The translations under genes and the position numbers were made by a program. Positions 51,401 through 63,448 of a DNA stretch of 63,448 nucleotides are shown here, one piece after another; the stretch's first letter is position 1; each line of letters opens with the position of its first letter. The stretch comes from Methanoregula sp. PtaB.Bin085 (GTDB lineage Archaea; Halobacteriota; Methanomicrobia; Methanomicrobiales; Methanospirillaceae). Location of the stretch: positions 1 to 63,448 of the forward strand of contig NZ_MVQB01000059.1 of the NCBI RefSeq assembly GCF_002067035.1, read 5' to 3'. The notes under the pieces were generated by a model. That model worked only from the letters and a program-made list of their open reading frames with translations. It searched no databases and was not told where the DNA came from.

Positions 51401-51811
51401 TCAGATCATCCCGATAAGGTCACGGGTAGTGCAAACGTTAAGGAAATCCTGTTTCAGGAAATGCCGGTCCTCTGTCCAGATGCGGCTGATGCCAAGAGCG
51501 AGACCCACTGCCAGAAACGGTGCATCGTTTTCATCAACGGGTTCCATGACCTGTATCGCGTGCAGGTATTCGGATTCGAAGTCTTCGAACGGGACAAGGA
51601 CAACCCTTTCAAGCAGGATCTGCATGAGATTATCGAAGTCCTGCTCCGTGATCTTTGCCTTTTTCATGAGATATTGCCGGTGCTTCAGGAGTTCGGTCTC
51701 GCAATAATCGGGCGCAAAAAATGAAAAGGAGCGGTGCAGGATGATTCTCCGGGAAGTGGAGTCTTTTAAAAGACCTGCCATGATTCGGTTTGTATCGATG
51801 ACAAGTCTCAT
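51401..51811 (-). CDS. vapC: PIN-domain toxin (VapC-like)
   Basis: A 136-residue PIN-fold ribonuclease. The acidic site residues are in place: Asp6 in VIDTNRI, Glu40 in ETELL, Asp96 in DENDAPFL and Asp115 in WTEDRHF. It belongs to the subgroup with MRLVIDTNR at the N terminus. It follows its antitoxin by 16 bases on the same strand and should be neutralised by it. Free toxin is expected to cut RNA, usually tRNA. Confidence 0.85.
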   Translation of the reverse strand: MRLVIDTNRIMAGLLKDSTSRRIILHRSFSFFAPDYCETELLKHRQYLMKKAKITEQDFDNLMQILLERVVLVPFEDFESEYLHAIQVMEPVDENDAPFLAVGLALGISRIWTEDRHFLKQDFLNVCTTRDLIGMI

Positions 51812-51827
51812 GCGTTCCGGTCCGTGC

Positions 51828-52073
51828 TCAGCTGCGGGTCTTTTTCAATGCTTTCCGCTTGTAGTGCTCCTGGATGCCTTCCTTGACCTTGTAATCGAGC
51901 GCCGTGATATCCTCTTCCGCAACCGCGCTGTGCTTTGTGATGGCGTCAAGCAGGGCCAGTTTTTTTGCGTAATCCTCGATCGCACGCCGCGCAATCTCGC
52001 TCCATCGCACTTCGCTGTGCGCCTTGACAATCCGGTGGACATCTTCCGGGAGTGACAGGGTTATGTTCGGCAT
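51828..52073 (-). CDS. vapB: ribbon-helix-helix antitoxin (VapB-like)
   Basis: An 81-residue protein with an N-terminal ribbon-helix-helix (MPNITLSLPEDVHRIVKAHS) that would dimerise on DNA and autoregulate the pair, followed by a charged tail (EEDITALDYKVKEGI) that should wrap round the toxin. It lies upstream of the PIN gene. GGTGAT precedes the ATG, and a TATA-like TTAAATA sits about 35 bases upstream (52107-52113 on the minus strand). Confidence 0.82.
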   Translation of the reverse strand: MPNITLSLPEDVHRIVKAHSEVRWSEIARRAIEDYAKKLALLDAITKHSAVAEEDITALDYKVKEGIQEHYKRKALKKTRS

Positions 52074-53256: not shown

Positions 53257-53520
53257 GCGTTGGAGTAACCGGTGTTATGCAAGGGGTTATTGGTATCGGG
53301 GGCCGGGTGGGGCATCCGGACCGGGAAAAAAACAGACAGATATGATTCTCAACCGGTTAGTTGGATTTATTTCAAAGAGATGGAGAATGATTTTTTTGAA
53401 TTTTTTATTTTACGCTCAACGGGGCTTCGCCCCTCGCCGCGTGGGCTTCCCTGGAATTTTAATCCGAATCTTTATCGATCAGCCCAGGCTACCTACTCCT
53501 CATCACGAGTTGTTTCTCTG

Positions 53521-55542
53521 ATGGATGAAAAAAAACCCTGCGGCTGGTCCGGTGCCATTCACAATTTTCTCAGCCTCTCCAAGCCGCACTGGCTCATCGC
53601 GATGCAGGAGCATCATAAGAGGTGCATGAATACTCCCGCTGATGAGAGCCAGATCCTTGCATGGGATTATTCGTTTGAAATCCTCCAACGAGAACTCAAA
53701 CAACTCGTTCAGATCAAACCGGCAATTGCATCGTACGCGATCATTTTCGAATACGAATTGCCACGGGAACGAGGCCGACGGCCTGATGTTGTGATTCTCG
53801 GCCCCTGCGTCTTTGTTCTCGAATTCAAGGATTATGCAAAACTCCTTGCAGCCCATAGCGATCAAGTCGCAGCGTATGCTCGGGATCTGAAGAACTACCA
53901 CGCTGGATCGCAGCAGTACACAGTTCTCCCTATCCTAGTTCTTGCCCGAGCAAAGGATCTCATTCAACGTGATGAAGATGTGCTAGTCATTTCACAGGAT
54001 CATCTTGCAGATGTTTTCGATGTGGAAGTTGAGTTGGAGAACGGACCTCTAATCGATCCGCAGAAGTGGATCACCGCTGAATACGCTCCACTACCGTCGC
54101 TGATCCAAGCGGCCCGGACCATCTGGGAGAAACAACCCCTCCCGCAGATTAAACGAGCCCAGAGTGCCGGCATCCCGGAGACGATTGCCGAACTCATCCG
54201 TATTGCAAAGGAAGCCCAAGAAAAGAATGAGCTGCATCTTGCGCTTGTGACCGGCGTTCCCGGGGCTGGCAAGACTCTTGTCGGGATTCAGCTGGTGTAT
54301 GAGAATCATCTCGAAACGTTTGCGCCAAGTCCGGTCTGTTTCCCTTCATCACCTCTTGCATTGTCCCAACCGATTGCTCCTTCGGCAATTGCAGACTCGG
54401 GTACACTCGCTTATGGCAAGAAAAAGCGTGAAAAAAACCCGGCATCTCGAAACATCGCCGTCTTCCTCTCCGGTAATGGTCCGCTCGTGAAGGTCCTGCA
54501 GCATGCCTTGAAGAACAACATCTTTGTCCAAGATGTCCATGGATTCTTGAAAGAGTATGGCGGCACGACTGCCAAGATCCCACACGAGCACATCTGGGTG
54601 TATGACGAGGCCCAGCGAGCCTGGGATGCGGAGCGGGTTAGTGAGAAACGCGGCCATGCTACGAGTGAGCCAGAGGATTTCCTCAAACTTGCCGAGCGAA
54701 TGAACTCGTGGGCCTTGATGGTTGCCCTCATTGGCGAAGGACAAGAGATCCACCTTGGCGAAGAGTCCGGTCTCCCGCAATGGAACGATGCACTTGCGAA
54801 GATGCAAAAGCCGTGGGTTGTTCATTGCCCCACGAAGATCGCCGGCAATTTTCCAGTTGTTAAAAATTGCTTGACAACTGACGTTCTCGATCTCTCCGTC
54901 ACCCTCCGCTCGCATCTTGCCGAGGATGTAGCGCAATGGATCGCCGCCATTCTCTCCGGTGATCTCACGCAGGCAAAGATGCTTGCCGAACGCGTCACGA
55001 GCCAGGGCTTTGACGCATACATCACGCAGGACATTAATGTAGCCGTTAATTATGTGAAGGAGCGGTATCAAGGACAAGAAGAGAAGAGATATGGATTACT
55101 TGCCTCTTCGAAAGCAAAAAACTTACCCGCATGGGGTATCAACAATTCCTTTAATTGTACCCAAAACATACGCGTTGGAAATTGGTATAACGATCCTCCA
55201 AATTCCTTTACCTCCTGTTGTTCTTTGCGTGAGGTAGTTACAGAATTCGGTTGTCAAGGAATGGAACTTGATTTCCCAATAGTATGTTGGGGCAACGATT
55301 TTGTTTGGGATGGAATGTGGAAGAGCCCTGCTGCAAAACGCTCAAAGGCGAAAGATCCACACCGGTTACGAATGAATAGTTATCGGGTCTTGTTGACCCG
55401 AGGTCGGGATGGGTTCATTATTTTTATCCCAAAGGAGATTGGGATGGCTTCGACATACGCTGCATTGGTGGGGGCGGGGGTGCGGGAGGTACATTGCGGG
55501 CAGCACACAGCAAATTTGGAAAAGGGATTATTCAAGATTTAA
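53521..55542 (+). CDS. PD-(D/E)XK nuclease fused to DUF2075 helicase-like ATPase
   Basis: A 673-residue two-domain protein. The N-terminal nuclease domain has RPDVVILGPCVFVLEFKDY (Asp, then Glu-x-Lys; about residues 90-108) and then HSDQVAAYARDL, the usual PD-(D/E)XK order with its Q-x3-Y motif. The rest is a DUF2075 P-loop ATPase of the helicase SF1 type: Walker A VTGVPGAGKTLVG (about 246-258), Walker B IWVYDEAQRAW (about 357-367), and late VLLTRGRDG. It probably cuts or unwinds DNA in a host-defence role, and is found with other defence genes here. ATG 53521 chosen: the longer frame has an AT-rich upstream leader with a hairpin. Confidence 0.8.
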   Translation: MDEKKPCGWSGAIHNFLSLSKPHWLIAMQEHHKRCMNTPADESQILAWDYSFEILQRELKQLVQIKPAIASYAIIFEYELPRERGRRPDVVILGPCVFVLEFKDYAKLLAAHSDQVAAYARDLKNYHAGSQQYTVLPILVLARAKDLIQRDEDVLVISQDHLADVFDVEVELENGPLIDPQKWITAEYAPLPSLIQAARTIWEKQPLPQIKRAQSAGIPETIAELIRIAKEAQEKNELHLALVTGVPGAGKTLVGIQLVYENHLETFAPSPVCFPSSPLALSQPIAPSAIADSGTLAYGKKKREKNPASRNIAVFLSGNGPLVKVLQHALKNNIFVQDVHGFLKEYGGTTAKIPHEHIWVYDEAQRAWDAERVSEKRGHATSEPEDFLKLAERMNSWALMVALIGEGQEIHLGEESGLPQWNDALAKMQKPWVVHCPTKIAGNFPVVKNCLTTDVLDLSVTLRSHLAEDVAQWIAAILSGDLTQAKMLAERVTSQGFDAYITQDINVAVNYVKERYQGQEEKRYGLLASSKAKNLPAWGINNSFNCTQNIRVGNWYNDPPNSFTSCCSLREVVTEFGCQGMELDFPIVCWGNDFVWDGMWKSPAAKRSKAKDPHRLRMNSYRVLLTRGRDGFIIFIPKEIGMASTYAALVGAGVREVHCGQHTANLEKGLFKI

Positions 55543-56321: not shown

Positions 56322-57563
56322 ATGCAGTCATCCAAATCTGAAATCCAAAACTTTGAGGAAATAATTGAGAAGTTTAAACGATTTGTTGCGGAAAAGAATC
56401 CGGATGGATCCTCTTCATTTAATGACGGCTGGCTGAACGATCAGGAAGGTTATAAGAAAAAAATTCCGGAGGGTGCAAAAAAGTCACTTCATATCAATGA
56501 ATGGGAAAAATCCTGGATCGGTTCTGGGAAAATTCATGCCCGTGTCATGGCTGCCCTGAATTATATTCCCCAGAATGAAGGCAATAATCTTGTTGATTGG
56601 CATCAGAAATCAGATTTCGACGAGATCAGAAATGGCGATGCCGGTCGGATGAAGAGGATTGAGTCATTACTTTTCAGGCTGTATACAGAGAAAAATACGG
56701 ACGATGAGCTATTTGATGAATTAACTGATGCCGGAGCGTTAGGAAAGTATTATGATCTTGTCTCGTACCTGTTCTTCATCAAGGACCCTCTCCTGTATCT
56801 CCCGAACCGGCCGAATAGTTTCCAGCAGGCTTTCGAATTACTGGGAGATTCATTTATTTTCCGGATGTCCGGACGTTGTTCCTGGGTAAATTACCTGGGG
56901 TTCTTCACGAGAATTGCGAAAGTTCGGGAGCTTCTTGCACCGGCGTTTGAAGAAAATGTTTCACTGATCGATGCGCATTCGTTTTGCTGGGTCATCGCTC
57001 ATAATCCGCAGATAGTAAAAGGAGATCTGAAACCGGCCCAGAATGAAGGTGCGAAACTGGTTTTTTCCGAACCATACTGCGTTTCAACCAATGATGTGCT
57101 CATACCCAGCGGTGTCCGGCGGTTCAATCCGATAACACGGAAAAAGAGAATAAAAGACGAATTGCGGAATAACCAGATCGGCGATGCCGGTGAGCTGTAT
57201 GTCCTGACCGCAGAGAAAAATCATCTTATAGTCAGCAAAAGACCGGACCTCGCGGCAATGGTGCGCCATACAGCAAAGGAGGAAGGGGATGGTAAAGGAT
57301 ACGATATCGAGTCTTTCTCGCCGAACGGGCAAAAGAAGTACATCGAAGTGAAAACAACAACCGGGAAGAAGAATTCCCGGTTCATGATCTCCGACACGGA
57401 ACTTGCTTTTTCCGCTGAGAACCCGGACAATTATTATCTTTACCGACTCTATGATTTCAAAGCATCAGCAAAGGAAAATTCCTGCTTTGTTCTTCATGGG
57501 AATATGCGGGAGATACTCGTGTTATATCCCATTCAGTTCACGGCGCTTCCGAAGGAATTCTAA
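56322..57563 (+). CDS. DUF3883-containing nuclease-like protein
   Basis: A 413-residue protein. The C-terminal third is a DUF3883 domain: GEL-Y near 297 and GYDIESFSPNGQKKYIEVKT (about 333-352) with the Asp ... Glu-x-Lys core of a PD-(D/E)XK nuclease. The N-terminal two-thirds is helical and has no family that I recognise. DUF3883 is common in R-M-like and defence proteins. It is AT-richer than the core genome, lies alone on the plus strand, and is flanked by two relics of XRE sequence. Probable DNA-cutting defence protein. Confidence 0.7.
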   Translation: MQSSKSEIQNFEEIIEKFKRFVAEKNPDGSSSFNDGWLNDQEGYKKKIPEGAKKSLHINEWEKSWIGSGKIHARVMAALNYIPQNEGNNLVDWHQKSDFDEIRNGDAGRMKRIESLLFRLYTEKNTDDELFDELTDAGALGKYYDLVSYLFFIKDPLLYLPNRPNSFQQAFELLGDSFIFRMSGRCSWVNYLGFFTRIAKVRELLAPAFEENVSLIDAHSFCWVIAHNPQIVKGDLKPAQNEGAKLVFSEPYCVSTNDVLIPSGVRRFNPITRKKRIKDELRNNQIGDAGELYVLTAEKNHLIVSKRPDLAAMVRHTAKEEGDGKGYDIESFSPNGQKKYIEVKTTTGKKNSRFMISDTELAFSAENPDNYYLYRLYDFKASAKENSCFVLHGNMREILVLYPIQFTALPKEF

Positions 57564-58084: not shown

Positions 58085-59857
58085 ATGTCAAGTGAGGGAA
58101 GAATACCAGCAATTGAAGGAGCCCATCTGTTACAATCCTTACGTGCTTCCGATTTTGATATCCCAAGCGCAATCGGAGAATTGATTGATAATTCAATTCA
58201 GGCAGATGCAAAAACAGTAAACATTAAAGTGAAAGATGTCGTTGCAGGAACTCATAAAAAATACAAGCTGATTCAGGAAATTGTTTGTGCTGATGATGGA
58301 TATGGTATGGATGCAACCCCGGGATCTACACTTCACAGCTGTATCAAATTAGGATATTCCACGAGGTTTAATAACCGGGATGGTATAGGCCGGTTTGGTG
58401 TCGGTATGACTCTTGCCGGGATCAGATTTGCCACTAAAATTGAGGTTTACTCAAAGCAGAAGGGAAAAAAGTGGAATTACATTATATTCGATCTGAATAA
58501 TGATGAGGATATCAATGAGGGGATAGCTCCACCTGTCGAAAAAGAACCTCCTGCCGAATATTTAACATTAGTTGGTAAGAGTGAGGGCACTCTTGTAATC
58601 TGGTCGGGATTTGATAAATTCGCGGAACAGGATCTTCATGCGACAACATATTCTGATGGCTTTGAGGCTCCTGACTCGCTTGATCCTTATGGATATCTGA
58701 ATCACTGGATTGGCAGGACATATAGGAAATTCATCTGGCAGGGCGTTAAAATCAATTTGAATGACCAGGAAGTATATAGCTTTGATCCGCTCTTTATCAG
58801 CAAACAGAAAAATCAGTTCCCGGAAGACCCCAAGGCAAAAATTATCTTCGAAAAGGAGATTGACTGGAATGTTTCCCATAATGGAAAGAAAGGTGGATCT
58901 GAAACCTCGAAAATCAAAATAAAAATTTCATTGCTCCCTGAATTCTATCGGGAAAACATTAGTAAAGGCGGTCTTCAGTTCAAAGGAAGATACATCGAAG
59001 AAAATCAGGGAATTTCCATATTAAGGAGTGATAGAGAAGTCTACTATGATGAAATCCCCTATTTTGGCGAAGGACGTGTTAAAAAATTAAACTGGGAGGA
59101 TAAAGATCGCTGGTGGGGTTGTGAAATCAGCTTCACACCTGAACTTGATGAGCATTTCACAGTAAAAAATATCAAAAGGGGTGCAGTTCCCGCTAAAGAA
59201 TTAAAAATTGCGTTATATTCTCTCATAAAACCAGTGAGGGATGCATGTATTGAACAAGTCCAGGCTCACTGGGCCCGTGTAAAAGCTAATCAGGAACGGG
59301 GAAAATTTGAGACAGGAACTGATATTAAAACAACTCATGCCACCGCTGAGACACTTGCCAAAACCACAAAAATCCCAGAGAAACCGAAAGCCGGAAAAAA
59401 CCTTACACCTGCAGAACAGGAAAATCGTCTTGAGAATCTGACGAGGGAACTTGATGAGACTGATGCACAAAAATGGAGGGTAAAATTTGAAAGTCAGCCC
59501 TTCACCATTATGGACGGTCACTGGAAGGGAGACACATTCATCGACATGAATTATCTTGAAGGAAAAGCAATTCTCCAGTATAACCTGAATCATGTCTTCT
59601 TCGAAGAAATGAGTAATATCAGAAAACAACTTCAGAATATGGATGATCCGACAAAGGCAGTCAAGCTTGCCCAAAAACTACACGAACTTATCGATATACT
59701 GCTGATGTCATTTGTTCGGGCGCGTCAGGGATTTGATGAAGACTCAGAATATTCCGTAAAACAGATCATGGAATATACCGTCCGTGACTGGGGCAGATAT
59801 CTTCACACATATACCCGGGCCTATGAAAAGGAACACCTGTTTGAAGAAGACGTATGA
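58085..59857 (+). CDS. GHKL (Hsp90/MORC-like) ATPase
   Basis: A 590-residue ATPase of the GHKL fold. N box AIGELIDNSIQADAK (Glu32, Asp35, Asn36), G1 box CADDGYGMDA (about 68-77) and G2 box GIGRFGVGM (100-108) are all intact, so it should bind ATP and close as a dimer in the way of MutL, Hsp90 and MORC proteins. A transducer-like domain follows to about 400, then a Lys/Glu-rich segment with a predicted coiled coil (about 430-470) and a helical C terminus. It is the first gene of the four-gene operon; its stop overlaps the helicase start as ATGA. Probably the energy-using clamp or sensor of a DNA-targeting system. Confidence 0.8.
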   Translation: MSSEGRIPAIEGAHLLQSLRASDFDIPSAIGELIDNSIQADAKTVNIKVKDVVAGTHKKYKLIQEIVCADDGYGMDATPGSTLHSCIKLGYSTRFNNRDGIGRFGVGMTLAGIRFATKIEVYSKQKGKKWNYIIFDLNNDEDINEGIAPPVEKEPPAEYLTLVGKSEGTLVIWSGFDKFAEQDLHATTYSDGFEAPDSLDPYGYLNHWIGRTYRKFIWQGVKINLNDQEVYSFDPLFISKQKNQFPEDPKAKIIFEKEIDWNVSHNGKKGGSETSKIKIKISLLPEFYRENISKGGLQFKGRYIEENQGISILRSDREVYYDEIPYFGEGRVKKLNWEDKDRWWGCEISFTPELDEHFTVKNIKRGAVPAKELKIALYSLIKPVRDACIEQVQAHWARVKANQERGKFETGTDIKTTHATAETLAKTTKIPEKPKAGKNLTPAEQENRLENLTRELDETDAQKWRVKFESQPFTIMDGHWKGDTFIDMNYLEGKAILQYNLNHVFFEEMSNIRKQLQNMDDPTKAVKLAQKLHELIDILLMSFVRARQGFDEDSEYSVKQIMEYTVRDWGRYLHTYTRAYEKEHLFEEDV

Positions 59858-61491
59858 TCAACAGATTACAGATTCAGGAACTGCAGGATCTCGTTGGAAA
59901 AGAAACCCTTCAGAGACTTGCAGCAATAATCCAATTCATTCCAAATAGCGGGATATCTCACCCGAATGACATCTATGAGAAACAAAATCTCGAGCGTATT
60001 TTCCTATCATTTGCCGGTCAGGATGCTTTTCAGAAAGAAGAATTTAGGAAAAAAATTATCAGCAGACTTTCTGATGAGGAAATACGATCTCTCGCTCAAA
60101 AATTAGGATTATCTGATTTGCTACCTTTTTCTGATCTCGTAAACCTGATCAGTCATAAGGCATGGACAGACAATTCTGAAACAAAGATTTTGATTGATTT
60201 TTTGAGATTGCCGGAAAGTTACATTCCCAGCGCTCGAACTGTCATTCCTAATATTGAAACTGTTAAAAGACCTGAAAGTCCTTATAAATCCCTTAAGGAT
60301 TATCAGAATGAAATATTTCGAAAAGTTGAAGGAAATCTCGAAAATCCGCTCCAAAAAATTTTGATCCAGATGCCAACAGGGTCTGGAAAAACCCGGACAG
60401 CGATGGAGATTATCTGTGCCGAAATGAATAAAAATCCGGGAAAATCAGTTATCTGGATTGCCAACTCTGAGGAATTATGCGAGCAGGCTGTCGAATGCTT
60501 CAGGGATGTATGGTCTCATATCGGGACATTTGATGCAGATATTATCCGGGCGTGGGGTCCAAATGATGTAAAGTATCCCATTAACAGCTCTTTTCTCGTC
60601 GCGGGTTTTGCGAAACTTCATTCTGCATTCAAACGAAATCCTGAGCTGGCAAAAGTAATTTCAAATAATCTTCATTTACTCATTATCGACGAAGCTCATC
60701 AGGTCATGGCTCCAACCTACAAGGAAGTCGTTACGAAATTGAGGGAAGATAATTTCAGTATCCATATGCTGGGACTGACTGCAACCCCCGGTCGTGGAAA
60801 TCTGGATAATGAAGAAACACGAGAGTTAATCGGTTTCTTTTCCGGGAATCGTATTGATATTGAATCAGGTAATCAGACCGTTTTCCAGTATCTCCGCCAT
60901 AAGAAAATTCTCGCACATATCAAAAAAGACCCCTTGTATACGAATATGGTATTCGAATTGACTCCTGCAGAGAAAAAATACCTGAAAAGTCATTATGACT
61001 TTTCAATGGAGTTCCTCGAAAGGATCTCTCTTGATGATATGAGAAATCTTGAAATTATTAAAAAATTGAAAAAAGAGTGTGAACTCAGGAAGAAAATTCT
61101 CTTCTTTGCCGGTTCAGTTAACCAGTCAAAATTCATCTGTGCGATTCTGAATTTCATGGGTTACAGAGCTGAGCATCTGGATGGATCAACAAAACGGGAT
61201 CGCCGAAGAAATATTATCACAGAATTTAAAAGTGGAGATCTCAATATCATTTGTAATTTTGGCGTTTTGACGACAGGATTTGATGCACCCAAAATTGATG
61301 TTGTTTTCATTGGTAGACCGACAATGTCGGTCGTATTATACAGTCAGATGGTTGGCCGTGGGTTACGCGGTCCGGCGATCGGGGGAAAGGAGTCATGCAA
61401 ATTAATCGATGTCATCGATAATATAGAAGCATACAATAGTCCGGACAATGTTTACGAGTATTTTGGAGAATACTGGGAGGAGAATGTCTGA
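59854..61491 (+). CDS. SF2 DEAD/DEAH-type helicase
   Basis: A 545-residue superfamily-2 helicase. After a novel N-terminal helical domain of about 140 residues come motif I MPTGSGKTRTA (173-183), motif II IIDEAHQV (277-284), motif III GLTATPGR (307-314), motif V LTTGFDAP (472-479) and motif VI QMVGRGLRG (498-506). The DEAH box and the late motifs resemble those of type I and III restriction subunits and DNA translocases. It should use ATP to move along or open DNA. ATG 59854 overlaps the GHKL stop by four bases, and the PLD gene starts eight bases before its stop. Confidence 0.88.
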   Translation: MINRLQIQELQDLVGKETLQRLAAIIQFIPNSGISHPNDIYEKQNLERIFLSFAGQDAFQKEEFRKKIISRLSDEEIRSLAQKLGLSDLLPFSDLVNLISHKAWTDNSETKILIDFLRLPESYIPSARTVIPNIETVKRPESPYKSLKDYQNEIFRKVEGNLENPLQKILIQMPTGSGKTRTAMEIICAEMNKNPGKSVIWIANSEELCEQAVECFRDVWSHIGTFDADIIRAWGPNDVKYPINSSFLVAGFAKLHSAFKRNPELAKVISNNLHLLIIDEAHQVMAPTYKEVVTKLREDNFSIHMLGLTATPGRGNLDNEETRELIGFFSGNRIDIESGNQTVFQYLRHKKILAHIKKDPLYTNMVFELTPAEKKYLKSHYDFSMEFLERISLDDMRNLEIIKKLKKECELRKKILFFAGSVNQSKFICAILNFMGYRAEHLDGSTKRDRRRNIITEFKSGDLNIICNFGVLTTGFDAPKIDVVFIGRPTMSVVLYSQMVGRGLRGPAIGGKESCKLIDVIDNIEAYNSPDNVYEYFGEYWEENV

Positions 61492-62437
61492 CCTTTACTT
61501 TTCCGAAGAGGAGATCTTCCTCAAGAAAGTCCAGGATTTTCTCTCAGCAACAGATTGTGAAGTTCTGATAATCTCCCCGTACATTAAAACTGATGTTCTT
61601 GATATTCTTTTAAAAAAATGTTCGGCAAAAATCAACATTATCACAACCTGGAAACTTCGGGATCTCCAGTTAGGAGCATCCGAACTCGATTTGTATCAGT
61701 ATTGTAAAAAGAGGGGAATTTTTCTCTATCTCAATCCCCGAATCCATCTGAAAGCGTTTGTGAATAATTATTCAACATGCATTTTCGGGAGTGCGAATAT
61801 TTCAAAAAAGGGATTTGCACTCGTCGCCGATCATAATTATGAGCTAGATGGAGAAGTCGAAATTATTGACGCTGAGACTATTATAAGATTTAAAAAGATT
61901 CTGAATGAGTCGATTCTTGTCAATGATGAAATCTATAAAATATACCTGGATGCCGTAAAAAGGTTAGAACCATTACCAGAACTGGATGAACCAGACATCT
62001 CTTCATTACCCCGGAAATCGGAATTCCTTATCTCGGCTCTTCCTATGAGTTATGACATCAAGGAGTTATTCGAAATTTATTCGAATAAATTCGAGCATGA
62101 ATCTGAAGAAAAAAGAGAATGTGCAATCCACGATATTATACTCTATAACCTTCCTCCAAACCTTGAATATCAAAAATTCCGGAATATACTTAAAGAACGT
62201 TTTTTTTCGTCGAAGTTTATCCAACGATTACTGGAATTCATTACAGATAATGGCCGTTATTTCGGTGAAGTAAAAGAATGGATTCAGAAAAATTGTGAGG
62301 ATGTTCCGGTTCCGAGCAGAAGAGATTTGACTGGGAATATTCAGGTGTTATACAAATGGATCGCAGATTTAAGTGATGGAGAATATAAGGTTGACCGGCC
62401 TCGTCATTCAGAACGGCTTTACCGGGTGAAAAAATGA
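61484..62437 (+). CDS. phospholipase D-like nuclease with one HKD motif
   Basis: A 317-residue protein. The PLD domain at about residues 20-150 has a single HKD-type motif, His88-x-Lys90 in PRIHLKAFV and GSAN (102-105), so it should work as a dimer with one motif from each chain, as in several restriction nucleases. The C-terminal 170 residues are helical and unrecognised, perhaps for partner binding. ATG 61484 has GGAGGAG directly upstream. Its stop overlaps the next start as ATGA. It is the probable DNA-cutting subunit. Confidence 0.82.
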   Translation: MSDLYFSEEEIFLKKVQDFLSATDCEVLIISPYIKTDVLDILLKKCSAKINIITTWKLRDLQLGASELDLYQYCKKRGIFLYLNPRIHLKAFVNNYSTCIFGSANISKKGFALVADHNYELDGEVEIIDAETIIRFKKILNESILVNDEIYKIYLDAVKRLEPLPELDEPDISSLPRKSEFLISALPMSYDIKELFEIYSNKFEHESEEKRECAIHDIILYNLPPNLEYQKFRNILKERFFSSKFIQRLLEFITDNGRYFGEVKEWIQKNCEDVPVPSRRDLTGNIQVLYKWIADLSDGEYKVDRPRHSERLYRVKK

Positions 62438-63246
62438 TGGATGCAGATGATGCAGGAAAACATCTGGAGAATATTAAAACCGGGATCTCCGTTGAGATTA
62501 TTCTGAAGGAGGATCGATCAGGTAAAAATCCCATTCAGGGGATTGTCAGTGAAATTCTCACGCATTCTTCATTTCATCCTCATGGGATCATGGTCCGTTT
62601 GGAGGATGGAAAGATCGGACGCGTTCAGAAGATTCTTTCAGAAATCTCTTCGACAATACTTGTTAAACCCCCAGTAGTAAACAATGAAATCGATTTTACC
62701 GAACTCGTGAAAAATGGAGAGAATGAATTTGTAGAGTTTAAATCAAGTGCTCTTTGGAGTAAAAATCTGAATGAACAACAACTCAAGGATCCAAATGCAT
62801 CCCCAGATATTCGGAAGTTTGGTCGAGAGGCTTCACGAGCAATTATCGGTAAAACAATTGCCGGTTTTATGAATACCCATGGCGGGAATCTGATAATCGG
62901 TATCAAAGAAAATAAAACAAAAAAACCTGATGAAATCATTGGCATAGAGAGTGAGTTTGGTAAACTCGAAGATCCATGTTCTGATGGATATCGTCGAATG
63001 GTTGTTGACAGCATTATTCGAAAATATTTCCCGTCGGAAATTTTCAACCACTTTAGTGATTACCTTAAGATAACATTCCCAGAAATCGAAGGTAAGATTG
63101 TTTGTTGGATTCAGATTCAAAGATCAAAAATCCCAGTGTTTCTAACGATCCGAAATGAAGAGTATTTTTTCATTCGGCTAGATGCAGAAACACGAGAATT
63201 GGATGGGAAACAGATGGGGGAGTATTGTGCAAAAAAATTTAATTAA
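62434..63246 (+). CDS. YwbE (DUF2196) domain fused to AlbA_2/Schlafen-like domain
   Basis: A 270-residue protein. Residues 12-67 (GISVEIILKEDRSGKNPIQG ... FHPHGIMVRLEDGKIGRVQ) match the small YwbE family (DUF2196), normally a separate protein of about 65 residues. Residues 86-270 form an AlbA_2 domain, related to the Schlafen core: FVEFKSSALW near 99, then GKTIAGFMNTHGGNLIIGI (139-157). The AlbA_2 fold binds nucleotide or nucleic acid, and in Schlafens it can cut RNA. The fusion of the two is unusual to me. It closes the operon, four bases after the PLD gene starts to end. Confidence 0.72.
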   Translation: MMDADDAGKHLENIKTGISVEIILKEDRSGKNPIQGIVSEILTHSSFHPHGIMVRLEDGKIGRVQKILSEISSTILVKPPVVNNEIDFTELVKNGENEFVEFKSSALWSKNLNEQQLKDPNASPDIRKFGREASRAIIGKTIAGFMNTHGGNLIIGIKENKTKKPDEIIGIESEFGKLEDPCSDGYRRMVVDSIIRKYFPSEIFNHFSDYLKITFPEIEGKIVCWIQIQRSKIPVFLTIRNEEYFFIRLDAETRELDGKQMGEYCAKKFN

Positions 63247-63282: not shown

Positions 63283-63387
63283 ATGGCTGCATTACAAGAA
63301 ATTCAAAAACAAGCCGCTGCCGAAGATATTGTAATCGAGCGCTTTTTTAATAACGGAACTCCTTTAGCAGTCCCAGTACTTCACTAA
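63283..63387 (+). CDS. short ORF at the right edge
   Basis: A 34-codon frame, starting MAALQEIQKQAAAEDI and ending in TAA at 63385-63387, in the AT-rich tail after the operon. No ribosome-binding site is clear and no family fits. It could be the cut-off start of a gene, a leader or noise. The bases up to 63448 hold nothing else I can support. Confidence 0.2.
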   Translation: MAALQEIQKQAAAEDIVIERFFNNGTPLAVPVLH

Positions 63388-63448
63388 TTTTTAGCTCGGG
63401 CTGAGAGAACAGTAAGATCTAAATAGTCGGCGGGCGCCGAATATGCTC

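Follow-up and report, generated by a model that had tools for sequence, protein, structure and literature searches.

A GHKL ATPase, SF2 helicase and PLD nuclease operon in Methanoregula as a candidate restriction module of a phosphorothioation-based system

Four overlapping genes lie near the right end of a 63,448-nucleotide contig of Methanoregula sp. PtaB.Bin085 (NZ_MVQB01000059.1, analysed as a whole and termed the window), and they raise the question of what a GHKL ATPase, an SF2 helicase, a PLD nuclease and a YwbE-AlbA_2 fusion protein do together and how such a set would tell self from foreign DNA. We confirmed the layout proposed by the initial annotation: the open reading frames occupy positions 58085-63246, successive genes overlap by 4, 8 and 4 bases, and each of the four domain assignments was borne out by Pfam models (Table 1). 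The start of the PLD gene was set to the ATG at 61484; the mechanically called frame begins at 61448. Because distant genomes carry this gene set as well, its assembly goes beyond chance, and its reading as a defence-type operon is supported.

Table 1. Genes of the four-gene operon in the window.
Product	Position	Strand	Pfam match
GHKL (MORC/paraMORC-like) ATPase, 590 aa	58085-59857	+	HATPase_c_3 1.3e-19
SF2 helicase/translocase, 545 aa	59854-61491	+	ResIII 4e-25, Helicase_C 2.4e-15
Single-motif PLD-superfamily nuclease, helical C-terminal half, 317 aa	61484-62437	+	PLDc_2 4.8e-7
YwbE (DUF2196)-Schlafen AlbA_2 fusion, accessory gene, 270 aa	62434-63246	+	DUF2196/YwbE 8.9e-22, SLFN_AlbA_2 3.3e-13

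The GHKL boxes are intact by sight (E32, D35-N36, D70-x-G-x-G74, G102-G107 and T169), and the solved structures closest to this ATPase are human MORC4, MORC3 and MORC2. MORC and paraMORC ATPases are defined by a GHKL domain followed by an S5 domain and by the MORC-specific motif GhXhhpXXRhl, and the segment GISILRSDREV of the window protein fits this motif by sight at 10 of 11 positions. The SF2 motifs of the helicase are also intact by sight (TGSGKT, DEAH, TATPGR and QMVGRGLRG), and its nearest solved relatives are RadD and then SauUSI, an enzyme that cuts modified DNA. The structure model of the PLD protein (pLDDT 88.7) has SauUSI as its top Foldseek match, with NucT and Nuc further among the matches, so that SauUSI ranks first or second among solved structures for the helicase and the PLD protein alike. 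The single-HKD motif previously ascribed to the PLD protein holds for the H and the K, but its D is replaced by N in the window protein (HLK-x4-N...GSAN). Across 35 PLD homologs, the H, the K and the asparagine of GSxN are kept (conserved HxK...GSxN, with H88, K90 and N105 invariant), whereas the D position varies.

We found no named system matching the exact set, in line with the initial annotation, and PADLOC 2.0 has no entry specific to the GHKL-helicase-PLD trio. Its models are not close to any of the three proteins; the matches are partial, the best being MzaB (GHKL ATPase domain), PbeA (helicase core, 6.9e-25) and DrmC (PLD, 3e-6), and the YwbE-AlbA_2 protein is without any PADLOC 2.0 match. 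The analogies drawn earlier with DISARM and with GHKL proteins of defence loci are sensible, with weak similarity to DrmC and MzaB. DISARM likewise combines a PLD subunit (DrmC) with a helicase, but matches to DrmA, DrmB and its methylase are absent from the operon; the MzaB match is confined to the ATPase domain and scores 45 bits where the cut-off is 850, and the operon contains no other Mza proteins. A literature search, with most subscription journals and preprints outside its reach, returned no description of the trio together with phosphorothioation (PT).

Several described systems share parts of this design. The predicted restriction-modification operons with MORC/paraMORC ATPases (Iyer 2008, PMC2292703) combine a GHKL protein with an SF2 helicase and a nuclease, sometimes of the HKD type, but their modification partners are DNA methylases, and phosphorothioation, desulfurases and AlbA are all unmentioned in that text. 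SauUSI (PDB 7clg) joins a PLD nuclease and an SF2 translocase that together read DNA modification, but does so in one polypeptide and without a GHKL protein. PbeABCD (PMC6459918, reinterpreted in PMC10853773) is archaeal and Dnd-linked and likewise has PLD and SF2 helicase components; however, PbeA carries both in one chain where the window has separate genes, and the system includes the CxC ABC ATPase PbeC and the DndE-like PbeD but no GHKL protein, whereas the window operon encodes neither an ABC ATPase nor a DndE. SspABCD-SspFGH (PMC8092258) is similar in being a multi-gene restriction module that adjoins sspBCD and pairs an ATPase with a DNA motor, and it damages DNA that lacks PT, as we propose for the window trio. 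Identity with SspFGH was our first guess and was dropped: SspF is a Walker A protein and SspH has an FtsK-like C-terminus (PMC8092258), and neither is found among the four operon proteins, which comprise GHKL, SF2 and PLD components instead. Because an FtsK-type cassette adjoins a helicase-GHKL pair within one sspABCD cluster of the Agrobacterium plasmid pAtCFBP7129b, the two cassette types are distinct. In an Agrobacterium plasmid cluster of this composition (L142, NZ_CP039925.1 352000-376000), the third place is taken by a 359-aa protein without a PLD motif. Identity of the trio with SspE, DndFGH or DndI was rejected as well; the HerA/FtsK protein of the DndH type, which defines DndFGH, is not encoded in the operon.

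When plasmids were searched with the window GHKL, the matches included helicase-GHKL-PLD cassettes in Mesorhizobium and Pleomorphomonas, among others, adjoining a cysteine desulfurase, a DUF4007 protein, a large ATPase and a PAPS reductase. Curated models identified the Mesorhizobium proteins as SspB, SspC and SspD, and identities among the relatives were confirmed with curated models of SspB, SspC, SspD and DndC. A scan of genome contigs with the single sequence gave no matches and an alignment-based scan was required, which yielded 79 loci. Helicase homologs adjoin the GHKL gene in 38 loci. When the scan loci were pooled with 13 plasmid loci, the GHKL, helicase and PLD genes occurred together in 34 loci, accompanied by at least two of SspB, SspC and SspD in 27, by Dnd in three and by SspD only in two. 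In the other two, PT genes were missing from the first stretch examined and present just beyond it on the same plasmid: SspD, SspC, SspB and a desulfurase lie some 6-12 kb from the cassette in Rhodobacteraceae SC52, and the genes from DUF4007 to the PAPS reductase (SspD) lie 9-16 kb from the helicase in Cyanobacterium HL-69. PT genes are therefore on the same replicon in all 34 trio loci. The Nitrosopumilus locus L049 carries the same GHKL-helicase-PLD trio convergent with dndBCDE-A, and at a Cenarchaeum GHKL-helicase locus a DndC gene lies ~14 kb from the GHKL gene.

The contig-scan count is partly biased because seeds adjoined ssp genes and the helicase-first clade was partly chosen in this way: the eight-seed alignment A2 held four PT-adjacent trio sequences (L017, L019, L022 and L023), one ssp-adjacent helicase-GHKL locus (L018) and the Nocardiopsis GHKL. 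The GHKL-first clade was seeded by the window and SC52 only, and the PT linkage of SC52 was not yet known when it was picked. The plasmid test was independent of the contig scan, being seeded with the window GHKL alone and covering 72,556 records, of which 37 had a GHKL match and 78 an SspD match. Both matches fell within 12 kb of each other in 13 of the 37 GHKL-bearing records against 0.04 expected (p ~3e-30), two of the 13 being near-copies (Trichormus), as are some of the other relatives. A phage search with the helicase gave generic SF2 matches only. In several actinobacterial loci (L061, L067, L070, L074, L077, L080 and L091), GHKLs of the same superfamily lie beside dndBCDE without the trio helicase and PLD, representing a second GHKL-Dnd combination.

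The window GHKL shares 32-42% identity with the GHKLs of PT-linked cassettes and falls, on a long branch, within a 20-row clade (SH-aLRT 98) in which the GHKL gene precedes the helicase gene at 18 loci and the remaining two rows are short truncated contigs; the tree was built by a quick method, and the exact position of the window protein inside this clade is unsure. Loci with the helicase first group apart, in 21 rows (SH-aLRT 99). Members of the GHKL-first clade come from archaea (Nitrososphaerota, an unclassified archaeon and the window host) and from at least the bacterial phyla Pseudomonadota, Bacteroidota, Planctomycetota, Myxococcota, Verrucomicrobiota and Zixiibacteriota. A search of 232 genomes of the order gave no close relative of this GHKL outside the host.

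The host genome itself encodes a PT modification system. Contig C53 carries a canonical dndBCDE-A operon in which TIGR03233, TIGR03183, TIGR03185 and TIGR03184 all score over their cut-offs and a DndA-like cysteine desulfurase gene adjoins those of DndB, DndC, DndD and DndE; full-length DndB occurs in 12 of the 232 genomes. DndH (TIGR03237) and SspB had no match in the host genome, a weak negative, as control genomes were also silent. Next to dndB on C53, a 744-aa ORF (L028:3158-5392, minus strand) appears by eye to be a NERD nuclease-UvrD helicase. The initial annotation had concluded from the lack of a methyltransferase that self would have to be recognised by the structure or state of the DNA; this conclusion is not supported, given the PT-linked relatives and the dndBCDE-A operon of the host. 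Instead, self is probably told apart by a chemical mark, sulfur, in the DNA backbone, and in this host the mark is probably supplied from another locus; the link to PT had been missed because it lies outside the window.

Against this reading, the dnd genes are on a different contig from the window operon (C53 versus C59); they reach to ~260 bases from the end of C53, and the window operon stops 202 bases short of the C59 end. An end-to-end join of C59 and C53 would give a convergent trio/dndBCDE-A arrangement as in Nitrosopumilus L049, but a check for a tail-to-tail junction via one insertion element showed end repeats that differ and match different contigs. Most relatives pair with sspBCD, and a Dnd mark reportedly gives no protection in the case of SspFGH (PMC8092258), so pairing across the sspBCD and Dnd mark types is not a given, yet three Dnd-linked cassettes exist.

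The linkage of its relatives and the dnd genes of the host make it likely that the operon serves as the restriction (effector) module in a restriction-modification system based on phosphorothioation. Sulfur would be placed in the host DNA backbone by modification enzymes, here DndBCDE-A and in most relatives SspBCD with a cysteine desulfurase; the GHKL ATPase would close on DNA as an ATP-driven clamp and, with the translocating SF2 motor, survey it; and where the complex meets no host PT marks, the DNA would be nicked or cut by the PLD protein, probably acting as a dimer. We infer complex formation, DNA cutting and PT recognition by the trio from analogy, and likewise the partnership of the window cassette with the unlinked dnd operon. 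The proposal that PT inhibits cutting is modelled on DndFGH, DndI and SspFGH: these systems damage PT-lacking DNA and harm PT-minus hosts (PMC8092258, PMC11662687). The missing motif Asp of the PLD protein counts against a role in PT restriction.

The same genomic linkage would arise if PT marks switched the module on for an attack on invading DNA, which is how SspE, another partner of SspBCD, works (PMC8092258). We consider such activation unlikely, since a set of motor and nuclease is closer to the PT-inhibited DndFGH and SspFGH than to the single-chain SspE, and no PT-binding pocket was identified in the window proteins. More improbable still is a stand-alone GHKL/helicase/PLD defence, akin to DISARM or MZA, that reads DNA structure and owes its PT linkage to clustering in islands. 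It would suit an operon that is unlinked to dnd on its contig, is weakly similar to DrmC and MzaB and lies in defence-rich surroundings. The right end of the window is indeed a defence island, because a Schlafen-g3 helicase protein (53272-55542; PADLOC PDC-S41, 1.5e-132) and a NOV_C protein (56322-57563; PADLOC PDC-S36, 4.9e-44) are encoded upstream of the operon, and the lower G+C of the operon stretch (38-41% versus ~60% further left in the window) is in keeping with an island. However, PT genes on the same replicon in every trio locus are far above what general island clustering would give, and the host has PT genes of its own. A decayed or orphaned relic, acquired with no fitting modification module and now inactive, or with the AlbA_2 protein acting alone, would agree with the unlinked dnd operon, the replaced PLD Asp and the repeat after the operon at the contig end, but is the least probable reading of all, given four intact frames, kept catalytic residues and a D position that varies among PT-linked PLD homologs as well.

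Beyond this host, a PT-dependent reading of the operon has a broader counterpart, to which we give somewhat better than even chances: that PT-dependent restriction modules combining an SF2 motor and a PLD nuclease with a MORC-like clamp form a class that is undescribed and widespread, with two clades (GHKL first and helicase first), some members having a PC4-like or YwbE-AlbA_2 subunit, and that the Methanoregula module works in trans, together with a Dnd mark. Of 2,678 sspBCD loci surveyed, 196 had SspFGH, 199 had SspE and a further 36 had both (PMC8092258). Most of these loci are thus without an assigned restriction partner, and the GHKL-SF2-PLD cassette is a candidate for some of them; if real, the class would fill part of the gap at sspBCD loci without nearby SspE or SspFGH. 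It would also place a MORC-type ATPase, whose prokaryotic role is little understood, where self and foreign differ by one backbone mark.

The co-occurrence of all four genes in other genomes, proposed earlier as a check, was found in distant organisms. The YwbE-AlbA_2 fusion directly follows the PLD gene in the archaeon SI039_bin30 (L037; 48% identity to the window protein) and in a Pseudomonadales locus (L042; 43%), both with the order sspB-sspC-sspD ... GHKL-PC4-helicase-PLD-YwbE/AlbA_2. By this recurrence in gene order, the fourth gene is part of the cassette, as an optional accessory. In many cassettes, the GHKL and helicase genes are also separated by a gene for a PC4-like protein (PF02229 in SC52), which is absent from the window operon. 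The C-terminal part of the PC4-like protein at L035:10671-11309 and of its homologs resembles the GHKL C-terminus, which suggests from sequence resemblance that it is a partner subunit of the GHKL protein.

The AlbA_2 part of the fourth protein matches SLFN12 and SLFN11 structures, and its structure prediction, from an alignment of three sequences, reached a pLDDT of only 44.8. For the Schlafen triad, E96 and E101 are conserved and fit by spacing, the profile alignment to SLFN12 beginning after these residues, and the third acidic position would fall at K158-E159. The protein may regulate by binding nucleic acid or may be a further nuclease effector, of the Schlafen type; the RNA- or nucleotide-sensing role suggested earlier is a guess. 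At other sites in related methanogens, AlbA_2 domains of this subfamily are joined to TPR, membrane and other domains, and because of these varied fusions we regard the domain as mobile. Scanning viral contigs with YwbE-AlbA_2 gave two distant AlbA_2 matches only.

The window also encodes an archaeal GatE and, on the minus strand at 51401-52073, a PIN_2 domain protein with an 81-aa partner that looks like a toxin-antitoxin pair. Downstream of the operon, a short ORF (63283-63448; MAALQEIQKQAAAEDIVIERFF...) runs into a ~75-base repeat that is common to the ends of contigs C63, C19 (both ends) and C10, and was probably interrupted by a mobile element. On host contig C46 (L134:7732-9485), a TPR-AlbA_2 gene is convergent with a lone YwbE gene, so that the host genome has both halves of the window fusion as neighbours at another site.
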